Shown piece by piece: positions 30,774 to 34,775 of a stretch of DNA of 64,000 nt. The position numbers and the translations under genes were made by a program. The stretch comes from an uncultured Burkholderiales bacterium. GTDB lineage: Bacteria > Pseudomonadota > Gammaproteobacteria > Burkholderiales > Burkholderiaceae_C. Position 1 is the first letter of the stretch. Each line of letters begins with the position of its first letter. The stretch lies in the NCBI GenBank assembly GCA_903886485.1, contig CAISMH010000014.1, forward strand, positions 124,001-188,000, written 5' to 3'. Under the pieces are notes generated by a model. That model had not been told where the DNA came from, did not search any database, and saw only the letters and a program-made list of their open reading frames with translations.

Positions 30774-31703
30774 TTATTTCGTTTTCCGCACGAGTCTGGC
30801 TTTCGACTCCTTGGGCTTGAGATGAGCCTTTTGAATCAACTCAAAAAAGGCTTGGGCCGCCGGCGAAAGACTGGTGTTTTTGTGCCGCAGCAAAGCAACC
30901 TTGCGTTTGACGACAGGGCCAGTCAAGGTGATTTTGCGCACATGCATTCGATCGCCATCCAGCAAGGTAGAGGAGGGCAGAATGGCGCAGCCCACGCCTG
31001 CGGCCACTAAATTGATCGCCGTTGCGTGATGCTGCACTTCGTAGTTGCCGTTGAGGCGAATGCCATGCTTGGCCAATTGGTAGTCCATGAACACGCGAGT
31101 CGCCATGAAGTTGCTGACCACAATCAGATCCGCTTCGCGCATGTCGGCCCACGTGACCGTGTCTTTGCCTTGCAGTGGGTGGGTATCTCGGCAGATGAAT
31201 ACCAAGGGGTCGTCAAACAAAGGCGTCTCAATCAGGTCTGGATGAGTTTCACCGTTGATGGCAATGCCGATTTCAGCCTGATGGTTGAGCACGGCTTCGC
31301 GGACCTCGTAAGAAGCGGCGTCCAACAAACGAATGCGGTTGCCGGGGCAGGTGTCGGCATATTGCCGGATGAGTTGAGGCAGCATGTGTGCGGCCATGCT
31401 GGGCACGCAGGCTAAGGTGAAGTTGCCCTTGGCATGCAGCGACATGTCTTTGAGCCGTCCCACAGCAGAGGTCATTTCATTGACGATGGCACGTGCTTGG
31501 GGCAGGAAGTCTCGTCCAACTGCGGTCATCTCAACGCGGCGCGTGGTGCGGTCGAGCAGCTTTAAACCCAAATAGGTTTCTAGTTTTTGCACTCGGCGTG
31601 TCAGTGCGGTTGGCGTGATGTGTAGCTGGTCTGCGGCTTTGTTAAAGCCCCCCAACTCTGCTGTCACAACAAATGCTTGGATGCCATCAAAATCTATTTT
31701 CAC
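30774..31703 (-). CDS. LysR-family transcriptional regulator of the tcu-like cluster
   Basis: A LysR regulator of about 309 aa. The N-terminal helix-turn-helix (FVVTAELGGFNKAADQLHITPTALTRRVQKLE, residues about 9-40) is followed by a periplasmic-binding-like effector domain. I chose GTG 31703 because it gives the usual LysR first residues (MKIDFDGIQAF); no ribosome site is visible, and TTG 31721 is an alternative. It lies upstream of tcuA on the same strand, unlike the usual divergent LysR layout, so it may be first gene of the operon or have a separate transcript. It is likely the counterpart of TcuR. Confidence 0.85.
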   Translation of the reverse strand: MKIDFDGIQAFVVTAELGGFNKAADQLHITPTALTRRVQKLETYLGLKLLDRTTRRVEMTAVGRDFLPQARAIVNEMTSAVGRLKDMSLHAKGNFTLACVPSMAAHMLPQLIRQYADTCPGNRIRLLDAASYEVREAVLNHQAEIGIAINGETHPDLIETPLFDDPLVFICRDTHPLQGKDTVTWADMREADLIVVSNFMATRVFMDYQLAKHGIRLNGNYEVQHHATAINLVAAGVGCAILPSSTLLDGDRMHVRKITLTGPVVKRKVALLRHKNTSLSPAAQAFFELIQKAHLKPKESKARLVRKTK

Positions 31704-31775
31704 GACGTCATTGTCAATCAACACGACCACCAGATTTTCATCACCATGCAAATCAAAAAGTCGTGATTTGCGGGT

Positions 31776-31781
31776 TACAAT
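31776..31781 (+). promoter_or_regulatory. -10 element of tRNA-Pro
   Basis: TACAAT ends 8 bases before the tRNA-Pro 5' end. The block TTACAATGAC (31775-31784) is identical to the one before tRNA-Ser. No clear -35 is seen 16-18 bases upstream. Confidence 0.6.
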
Positions 31782-31789
31782 GACGGCAT

Positions 31790-31866
<77 letters not shown>

Positions 31867-31873
31867 CAAAAGC

Positions 31874-31904
31874 AAAAAAGGCCTCGTACTGCGAGGCCTT
31901 TTTT
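31874..31904 (+). terminator. intrinsic terminator between tRNA-Pro and tRNA-Arg
   Basis: A 13-bp perfect stem, 31874-31886 (AAAAAAGGCCTCG) and 31892-31904 (CGAGGCCTTTTTT), over a 5-base loop. It begins 8 bases after tRNA-Pro and ends 5 bases before tRNA-Arg. Confidence 0.92.
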
Positions 31905-31909
31905 CATTT

Positions 31910-31986
31910 CTGTCCGTAGCTCAGTTGGATAGAGCAACAACCTTCTAAGTTGTGGGTCACAGGTTCGATTCCTGTCGGACAGGCCA
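31910..31986 (+). tRNA. tRNA-Arg (anticodon TCT)
   Basis: A 77-nt cloverleaf with acceptor CTGTCCG/CGGACAG, anticodon stem ACAAC/GTTGT around CTTCTAA (TCT, reading AGA and AGG), T-arm ACAGG-TTCGATT-CCTGT, discriminator G and encoded CCA. It has no room for its own promoter after the terminator just upstream. Confidence 0.95.
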
Positions 31987-31995
31987 TCTCTTTGA

Positions 31996-32994
31996 TCAGT
32001 TGAATAACCAATCTGGGTTCAACGCGACATAGCAGTTCTTTTCTCCGAGTAAATGTCCGTCTGGACTCACACAAAAGTTGGCACGGCGGAACTTCTTGTC
32101 GTCCGTCAACACATACGAGCGATAGATCTCTTTGCTTTTGATGCCCGTTTTGTCCTTGGGGTACAACATCATGAGACGCGTTGAACCGCATTCTCCGGTG
32201 CGAAGGCATTGCAGCGCACTTTTGTCATCGATATAAAACTCCACAAAAACTGCGCCAGGAAATTTTGTATTCGGTTTGGCAACCTTGATCATGCAGGGTA
32301 GCTCTTGAGCTCTTGGAAGACCCATGCGGTCAGCAAATGTGTTCATTTCTGCCAAGATGGTGTCGCGGTATTTGGTACTGATGGTCTTACGACACAAAAA
32401 ATAATCGGCATACACATTGGACTGAACCACAGGGGTGAGTGGCCGATTGGCGCCGTCTAATTTGATCACCGCGCTGTCGTACACCTTACTCACGGTGGGC
32501 TCTACTTTTTTTGCTTCTTTGCCGTGACCGCCACCATGACCTCCGCCGTGGCCATCGTCACCTTTTTTTGCATCTTTTTTTGGGTCGCCGTGACCGTCAT
32601 CTTTCTTTTTTTCTTCTTTTTTAGGCTCGCCGTGGGCGTCATGGCCATCGTCCTTTTTCTTTTCTTCCTTTTTATGTTCGCCGTGCCCATCGTCCTTTTT
32701 CGCGTGAGGATCAGACGCCTTGCCGTGTTCATCCTTGGGTTCAGGCTTGTGCGCTTCTTTTGCCTCTCCTTTGGGAAGCTCTTTGGGTTCTTCAAATTTG
32801 GGTTTGGCTACGTGTTTGTAGACATAACCGCTGCGACCCACTTCACCTTCTTCGTCAACGTAGTCGAACTTAGGTTTGGGTGGTTCCTCTTTAACTGCTG
32901 ATTTTTTAGGCGGATCGTTCGCCAGCACAGGCAAGCTCAGGCCGCTCGTCATGAGCAGGAGGGCCGCAAGAAGTGTGGGAAATGAAAAACGCAT
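31996..32994 (-). CDS. secreted six-cysteine protein with His/Lys/Asp-rich repeats, function unknown
   Basis: I do not recognise this 332-aa protein. It has a signal peptide (about residues 1-25) and a charged middle at residues 71-165 rich in Lys, Glu, Asp, His and Gly, with four DDGH units (101, 115, 132, 146) ending in GHGGGHGGGHG. That segment could bind metal ions. The C-terminal domain has cysteines at 201, 234, 263, 269, 308 and 321. The same six cysteines, with nearly the same spacing, occur in the next gene upstream, so the two are tandem paralogs. I chose ATG 32994 because the signal peptide begins there; a TTG at 33018 is possible. It ends 10 bases from tRNA-Arg. Confidence 0.75.
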   Translation of the reverse strand: MRFSFPTLLAALLLMTSGLSLPVLANDPPKKSAVKEEPPKPKFDYVDEEGEVGRSGYVYKHVAKPKFEEPKELPKGEAKEAHKPEPKDEHGKASDPHAKKDDGHGEHKKEEKKKDDGHDAHGEPKKEEKKKDDGHGDPKKDAKKGDDGHGGGHGGGHGKEAKKVEPTVSKVYDSAVIKLDGANRPLTPVVQSNVYADYFLCRKTISTKYRDTILAEMNTFADRMGLPRAQELPCMIKVAKPNTKFPGAVFVEFYIDDKSALQCLRTGECGSTRLMMLYPKDKTGIKSKEIYRSYVLTDDKKFRRANFCVSPDGHLLGEKNCYVALNPDWLFN

Positions 32995-33050
32995 ATCCCT
33001 AGAAGATCGGCTTTTCAACGGAGGGCTTTAGCGCCTTTGGCAAAAAAGCC

Positions 33051-33611
33051 TCAGGGAACGGTGTAGCAAGTGGTGTCTGGGAACAATTTGCCCTTATCAG
33101 TCACGCACTGTTGCGAGATCAGCTTGCGGGACATATCGGACAAAAAGTAAGAGCGATAAAGCACTTTATCTTTTGGAATCAGACTGATGCTGCGAAACAC
33201 AGGACATTGTTCGTTGCGAACACAGGCGGTGAGTCGCTGTTGATTCACATATAAGTGAATGTTGATCCGCCCAGGGGTCAAACTTTTGTCTGTCCCAATG
33301 CTCACCACGCATGCATCGCCTTTGACGAATGGCAAGTCAGCCAACTCCGCAAAATAGTTCATCTCGGCGACCACAAGTTCTCTGAACCAAGGTGCAACGA
33401 TGCCATCGCAATCAAAGTAATCTAGCTTGGTGGTATGAACCATGATTTCGGTGTAGGGGCGATTTTTCGGTCCCAGCAACAACATAGGTTCTGCCCCCGA
33501 TTGCGGTGGCCTGGCAAGTAATGCTCGTGAGGCTTTTGTTTTGTCTTGCGCGAACACACCCGTCCATACAGACAGGAGCAAGCAGGTCAACAGGAAAAAC
33601 TTCTTAAACAT
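33051..33611 (-). CDS. secreted six-cysteine protein, function unknown (paralog of the next gene)
   Basis: A 186-aa unrecognised protein with a signal peptide (residues 1-21, ...TGVFAQ). Cysteines lie at 68, 101, 130, 136, 169 and 182, giving spacings 33-29-6-33-13, against 33-29-6-39-13 in the downstream neighbour. Shared blocks are DYF-C, AEMN-F, PKDK and YRSY-L-D. It lacks the charged repeat segment. The two lie 56 bases apart on the minus strand and are probably cotranscribed. Three disulfides in a periplasmic or secreted domain are likely. It is divergent from the NHL lipoprotein gene. Confidence 0.75.
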   Translation of the reverse strand: MFKKFFLLTCLLLSVWTGVFAQDKTKASRALLARPPQSGAEPMLLLGPKNRPYTEIMVHTTKLDYFDCDGIVAPWFRELVVAEMNYFAELADLPFVKGDACVVSIGTDKSLTPGRINIHLYVNQQRLTACVRNEQCPVFRSISLIPKDKVLYRSYFLSDMSRKLISQQCVTDKGKLFPDTTCYTVP

Positions 33612-33716
33612 GACGTCTCAGCAATCGGTTGTAATGGAGGTAACTTTATCAGTTTGTACTGAGTCCTTGTTTTGAGCTATCAAGTAAAGTCCAGAGAAGC
33701 CGATTAAAACCTTAGG

Positions 33717-34775
33717 ATGAAAACTATCAAATTTTTTTTTGTAATTTTGCTGGCGGCTTTCGTGGGGGCATGTGGTGGAGGCGGCGGTGGAGTGGGTGTC
33801 CCAGGAGGGAATTCGGGAGGTGGTTCGAATGGGCCGATCTATACGGTGACGACCCTGAATTTGAACCCCCTATCTCTGACGACGCCTTCTGGCTTAACCT
33901 TCGACACAAACGGAAATTTGTACGTTGCTGACACCAGTGTTGATCTAATTAAAAAAATTCAAAACCTGAGCAGTACTACTCCCAGCGTTAGCTCATTTTT
34001 AGGCGGCGGGGGCACAGACTACAACACATGCAGTGGTTCTAAGTTGTATTCACCATATGGCGTTGCTGTCGATAGCACTGGTACGCTTTATGTGGCTGAA
34101 CAAAACAAAACAGATGTGCGTTACGCTGACTGCACAGTTGGTTTTGGCGTGTCTGCTGTTTATGGTACTGGGGCTGCGCTCTCAGGCCCCAGTGGCATTG
34201 CGTTGTCTGGAAACCTCTTGTATGTAGCAGACACGGGTAACAATGTCATTCGCTTGATCACCAACAACGGAGTGCACAGTGGCGTTTCCTCGACATTTGC
34301 TGGACTCGGTACGAATGGCTATGTGGATGGCGCCTCTAATATTGCAGTCTTTTCTTCTCCCACAGGAGTTGCTGTCTCAAGATCAGGGGACGTTTTTGTT
34401 ACTGATACCAATAATTGTGTGATTAGAAAAATTTCTGCGGGGCAAGTGTCTACGTTTGCGGGCGCTGGCCCGACCTCTTGTGCCAGCGCAGACGGCACTT
34501 CAACAGCTGCTCAATTCAATCATCCTTCGGGTATCGCCTTGGATGCCAGTGATAATTTGTATGTGGCCGATACAGTGAGTAACAAGATCCGTCGAATTAC
34601 GCCGCAAGGTGTGGTGACGACAGTTGCTGGTTCTGGTGTAAGTGGCTCAGCCGATGGCACAGGTTCTAGTGCCACATTTAATACACCAACCGGTATCGCT
34701 ATTGATGCAAATGGCAATGTCTTCGTAGCCGAACATGCCAGCGGCAAGATTAGAAAAATTACCGTTACGCCATAA
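33717..34775 (+). CDS. NHL-repeat beta-propeller lipoprotein
   Basis: A 352-aa predicted lipoprotein with lipobox FVGAC at residues 15-19, then a Gly/Ser/Asn-rich spacer to about residue 42. The rest consists of NHL-type repeats such as PSGLTFDTNGNLYVADT, PYGVAVDSTGTLYVAEQ, PTGVAVSRSGDVFVTDT, PSGIALDASDNLYVADT and PTGIAIDANGNVFVAEH. Five or six blades can be seen, forming a beta-propeller for binding. The ligand or partner is unknown. AGG sits very close to the ATG, so initiation looks weak. It is divergent from the six-cysteine pair across 105 bases. Confidence 0.85.
   Translation: MKTIKFFFVILLAAFVGACGGGGGGVGVPGGNSGGGSNGPIYTVTTLNLNPLSLTTPSGLTFDTNGNLYVADTSVDLIKKIQNLSSTTPSVSSFLGGGGTDYNTCSGSKLYSPYGVAVDSTGTLYVAEQNKTDVRYADCTVGFGVSAVYGTGAALSGPSGIALSGNLLYVADTGNNVIRLITNNGVHSGVSSTFAGLGTNGYVDGASNIAVFSSPTGVAVSRSGDVFVTDTNNCVIRKISAGQVSTFAGAGPTSCASADGTSTAAQFNHPSGIALDASDNLYVADTVSNKIRRITPQGVVTTVAGSGVSGSADGTGSSATFNTPTGIAIDANGNVFVAEHASGKIRKITVTP

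Follow-up and report, generated by a model that had tools for sequence, protein, structure and literature searches.

A duplicated, putatively exported six-cysteine domain of an unclassified family beside a variable lipoprotein gene in Limnohabitans

Two neighbouring genes of an uncultured Burkholderiales bacterium (assembly GCA_903886485.1, contig CAISMH010000014.1) encode proteins with a common pattern of six cysteines, which raises the question of what this domain is, how the pair arose and what it might do. A first-pass annotation had described them as tandem secreted proteins with a duplicated disulfide-rich domain of a family that it did not recognise. We analysed the window of 64 000 nucleotides that contains both genes (contig positions 124 001–188 000) together with related genomes. 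The source genome is 2.49 Mb in size and its nearest named relatives are the Limnohabitans isolates Jir61, JirII-31 and B9-3 along with freshwater Comamonadaceae bins. We are highly confident that the two proteins, here called A and B, arose by an ancient duplication and are exported, probably to the periplasm or outer membrane, and that each is built on one compact beta-rich domain in which six invariant cysteines are predicted to form three disulfides.

RESULTS

Two adjacent genes share a six-cysteine domain

Gene A (33051–33611, minus strand) encodes a protein of 186 aa with a predicted export signal and is followed on the same strand by gene B (31996–33018), as the first-pass annotation had placed them. 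Hydrophobic signal peptides, also claimed there, were read by eye in both, namely MFKKFFLLTCLLLSVWTGVFA followed by QD in A (33549–33611, minus strand) and MRFSFPTLLAALLLMTSGLSLPVLA followed by ND in B (32920–32994, minus strand), and both proteins are accordingly predicted to be secreted. The reading frame of B is open from a TTG at 33018 (340 aa), but the ATG at 32994 is the more likely start because the signal peptide begins there. The domain had been described as C-terminal in both proteins. This holds for B, where it lies at 31999–32502 (minus strand) behind a charged low-complexity linker of 139 residues (32503–32919, minus strand; 24% K/R, 25% D/E and some HG), and not for A, where it spans residues ∼40–186 (33054–33494, minus strand) and makes up most of the mature protein. 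The linker of B measured 20–152 residues by script among relatives.

Recounting over all members reproduced the reported cysteine spacings exactly, with 33-29-6-33-13 in A and 33-29-6-39-13 in B. The cysteines of mature A are at residues 68, 101, 130, 136, 169 and 182, and a seventh, C10, lies within the signal peptide. The sequence blocks DYF-C, AEMN-F, PKDK and YRSY-L-D were found in both proteins. Since BLASTP aligned A and B with 30% identity over 142 aa (E 1e-22), their likeness is beyond chance, in agreement with the earlier judgement that the pattern was too regular to be accidental.

All complete domains of the family contained the six cysteines, and an extra cysteine was absent from all 92 aligned copies. 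The spacings C1–C2 (33, rarely 35), C3–C4 (6) and C5–C6 (13) were nearly fixed while C2–C3 and C4–C5 varied among members, which hints at a sequential pairing of the cysteines. When the remote relative described below was included, only one proline and the six cysteines remained as invariant columns. Six invariant cysteines with none extra, retained even in a remote relative, is the pattern expected from three structural disulfides, and such an even, invariant set, as of an exported three-disulfide domain, was found throughout the family. Within the genus, R111, R124, E54, N56 and D130 (A-domain numbering, alignment A5) were also invariant or nearly so, and they matched no known active site.

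Distribution and duplication history

The family was matched in 56 of 61 genomes of the same GTDB genus (Limnohabitans). A orthologues were found at 24 loci around matches and in most genomes of the genus, and A was under strong purifying selection (dN 0.03–0.09, dS saturated). In the sample of the same bacterial family, 6 of 400 genomes matched, all of them of the genus Limnohabitans and none of any other genus. Samples of the order, class and phylum gave one further credible match, an exported protein in a genome (G949) from a different family, likewise in the class Gammaproteobacteria (E 2e-12, spacing 33-31-6-33-12), and a relative of this type was present in 1 of 47 genomes of the order of G949. 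Order-wide weak fragment matches (best E 8.7e-4 over 44 aa) were taken as noise. Each genome was screened through a loose first pass, so that remote members may have gone unnoticed. Given the 56 of 61 genomes and the match in G949, this is a core family of the genus with at least one distant cousin and is not strictly genus-bound. In one genome, G542 (84% complete), A, B and the neighbouring lipoprotein gene were jointly absent from the slot, whereas most other absences in the genus coincided with contig ends or incomplete genomes and are little informative.

A tree of 129 distinct domain sequences, computed rapidly under a simple model and rooted at the midpoint, resolved three groups with support of 81–99 on the deciding branches. 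The A clade (54 sequences) was always the first gene of a pair and the B clade (55 sequences) always the second, while 14 unpaired copies formed a group S, sister to A. Because A and B form separate clades in a fixed gene order, their duplication appears to predate the sampled genus, and a single duplication before the genus spread would explain the pair. The two clades and the invariant cysteines thus bear out the proposal of a duplicated domain, whose disulfides are predicted. A hydrophobic N-terminal segment was present in 47 of 48 A, 44 of 48 B and all 15 of 15 S proteins by a heuristic other than SignalP, and according to a pattern test 23 of 48 A proteins have a lipobox in place of the signal peptide. 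The S copies at L058–L060 are among those lying near redox or sulfur genes, and the S copy at L052 lies beside a 6.2-kb ORF (L052:8122–14298) whose haemagglutinin-like product contains YDG and ALTTAQ repeats.

Searches for known families and folds

We searched A and B against family collections and found no match in Pfam, including when 39 members were scanned singly (noise only), or in PHROGs and PADLOC; in NCBIfam the only hit (E 3.8) was located in the linker of B. Plasmid and phage records contained no match to the domain family, and the sole match of the family profile against PDB sequences, nucleolin (E 0.14), was taken as chance. A profile search of genomes and of solved-structure sequences recovered a genus-wide family and no known domain, and the remark that the family could not be recognised stands. 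No description of it was found among the open-licence papers searched. Three protein classes were rejected from the sequences. Thioredoxin-like and DsbA oxidoreductases were dismissed for the lack of CXXC, the closest cysteines being 6 apart in every member; c-type cytochromes for the absence of the CXXCH haem site from A and B; and the cystatin family for the absence from both of the QxVxG motif of the inhibitory hairpin.

AlphaFold gave a confident model of the B domain (pLDDT 89.6, pTM 0.86), in the order strand-helix-strand-strand-helix-four strands, and a moderate one of A (pLDDT 72 overall, mostly in the 80s for residues 60–130). No significant structural match was obtained for either. 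Foldseek against the PDB and viral libraries returned nothing under E 0.3 with the A and B-domain models, and E was 0.46 or more where a cystatin-like fold was in question. Second looks with VIA likewise gave no Z of 5 or more, and by that tool's own notes a Z under 8 may reflect only a common arrangement. The top-ranked solved structures for both models were of the monellin/cystatin fold (PDB 5o7l and 5o7k; true cystatin 2w9p), a helix wrapped by an antiparallel sheet, for which the best VIA Z values were only 4.8 and 4.9. The likeness consists of a helix after the first strand, followed by strands, over 73–82 residues. On the other hand, the rmsd was 3.6–5.0, the Z values are within the range of chance arrangements, a sequence match is absent, and A and B have extra strands and three presumed disulfides. 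BLIP and BLIP-like proteins and the DUF2874 periplasmic proteins (3e2k, 4fr9 and 4ipb), which are likewise exported alpha/beta binding domains, gave weak structural rows (Z ∼3.1–3.4) and no significant match.

A variable lipoprotein gene adjoins the pair

The A–B slot adjoins glutathione S-transferase (GST) and acyl-CoA dehydrogenase genes and, in many genomes, tRNA-Arg and tRNA-Pro. Tandem-repeat and Rfam scans of the locus returned only one short simple repeat and two tRNAs. In the window, a LysR-type ORF (30774–31940) overlaps tRNA-Pro (31790–31866), and as the listed ORF runs through this tRNA into tRNA-Arg, its true start lies further in.

Upstream of A, a divergent gene (33717–34775, plus strand) encodes a 352-aa poly-Gly lipoprotein with the lipobox AFVGAC-GGGGGG and a predicted NHL-type beta-propeller (E 2.6e-35). 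The 105-bp intergenic region between them (33612–33716) is a candidate shared promoter region, in which a simple scan found no sigma-70 consensus. A divergent poly-Gly lipoprotein gene was found beside A at 34 of 45 pair loci as compared with 0 of 14 unpaired loci. The neighbour lipoproteins fell into three mutually non-alignable BLAST groups with Pfam calls of NHL (window), FG-GAP (L007, L019 and L071) and lactonase (L081), and between species whose A proteins are 93–96% identical the similarity of the propellers can fall to the level of shuffled sequences. Across loci L006–L128, the lipoprotein beside A is exchanged or diverged beyond recognition between close species while flanking genes are ∼90% identical. 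The 11 of 45 pair loci that lack the divergent lipoprotein mostly carry another exported-looking gene pair, and at L073, L101 and L106 the slot had no neighbour gene beside A. At seven loci (L063, L064, L080, L100, L112, L114 and L116), a divergent OMP_b-brl-like barrel replaces the propeller lipoprotein, and a co-directional repeat protein of ∼300–355 aa without a Pfam family lies upstream of A.

Many Gram-negative lipoproteins have a glycine stretch behind the lipid cysteine, and in surface sorting of fHbp this stretch is dispensable (PMC5500766). As surface exposure of fHbp is independent of it, poly-Gly is no proof of a surface location for the neighbour lipoprotein (PMC5500766). The notion that a variable lipoprotein may have its own dedicated partner nevertheless has a parallel in the surface lipoproteins fHbp and NHBA and their export factor Slam (PMC5449769, PMC5500766), and the divergent neighbour resembles fHbp in its poly-Gly stretch after the lipid cysteine. 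Slam, however, is an outer-membrane protein and is unrelated in sequence to A and B. SlipAM gave 0 matches in the 61 genus genomes, a search in which the control was silent as well.

DISCUSSION

The shared domain, export signals, cysteine framework, duplication, synteny and variable neighbour are all supported by sequence. No conserved enzyme motif was found in A or B, and the two probably act by binding as non-enzymatic proteins. Their genes lie side by side on one strand and are probably co-expressed. In the model that we infer, the six invariant cysteines would form three disulfides stabilising each domain, and A and B, located in the envelope, would perhaps form a heteromeric complex from which B reaches out on its charged linker. 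The pair could then fold, anchor or present the divergent lipoprotein, in which the propeller head changes from one species to another. Taken as a whole, envelope proteins made together and perhaps partnering the lipoprotein is our best explanation, and a tentative one. The partnership itself is possible but doubtful: the presence of the lipoprotein at 34 of 45 pairs and at none of the 14 unpaired loci and the joint absence in G542 speak for it, and the 11 pair loci without the lipoprotein speak against it. Going further, the pair may be a conserved module dedicated to handling or displaying an interchangeable lipoprotein, with non-homologous heads of NHL, FG-GAP or lactonase type being swapped into a single chromosomal slot, a specific form of the idea that we regard as unlikely.

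It is about as possible that A and B are self-standing exported binders, such as inhibitors of foreign proteases or ligand binders shaped like cystatin or BLIP, and that the lipoprotein merely shares a turnover-prone slot. Monellins ranked first for both models with true cystatins and BLIP-like proteins lower, some genomes keep A–B without the lipoprotein, and the unpaired S copies have no lipoprotein neighbour. Yet Z values of this size may stem from a common arrangement only, the inhibitory QxVxG motif is missing, and the strict A–B pairing and the frequent lipoprotein neighbour would demand another cause. Chemically active cysteines, with an envelope thiol or sulfur/redox function, would be in keeping with the surroundings of some S copies, of which one lies between two rhodanese genes (L048) and others near an AhpC/TSA-thioredoxin protein (L047), near OsmC and a CysM-like enzyme (L055–L057), near hemerythrin (L052) and near Rrf2, thioredoxin 2 and flavocytochrome-c sulfide dehydrogenase (L061). 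These neighbourhoods differ from one another, however, the A–B pair has no such neighbours, and exactly six cysteines without CXXC form the pattern of structural disulfides, so that we consider this function improbable. Still further from likely is a metal-binding role of B in which the domain would serve as an anchor for the HG-rich linker. DDGHG and HGGGHGGGHG repeats do occur in the B protein of the window and its near relatives, but histidine is near zero in other B linkers (KKEEKKEGGEKK type) and some relatives have a linker of only ∼20 residues; as its histidines are not conserved, we rejected metal binding as a general function.

The domain family is unclassified, and its distribution, its division into A, B and S, its distant cousin, the unmatched structural model and the variable neighbour are added here. 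Among freshwater bacteria, Limnohabitans is a dominant one (PMC10019246, PMC3591437). That its core gene set includes a strictly conserved exported pair from an unclassified family, next to a lipoprotein gene that changes fast, points to genus-specific cell-envelope biology, and if the partner role were true, the pair would represent a system that handles lipoproteins and whose substrates can be exchanged.
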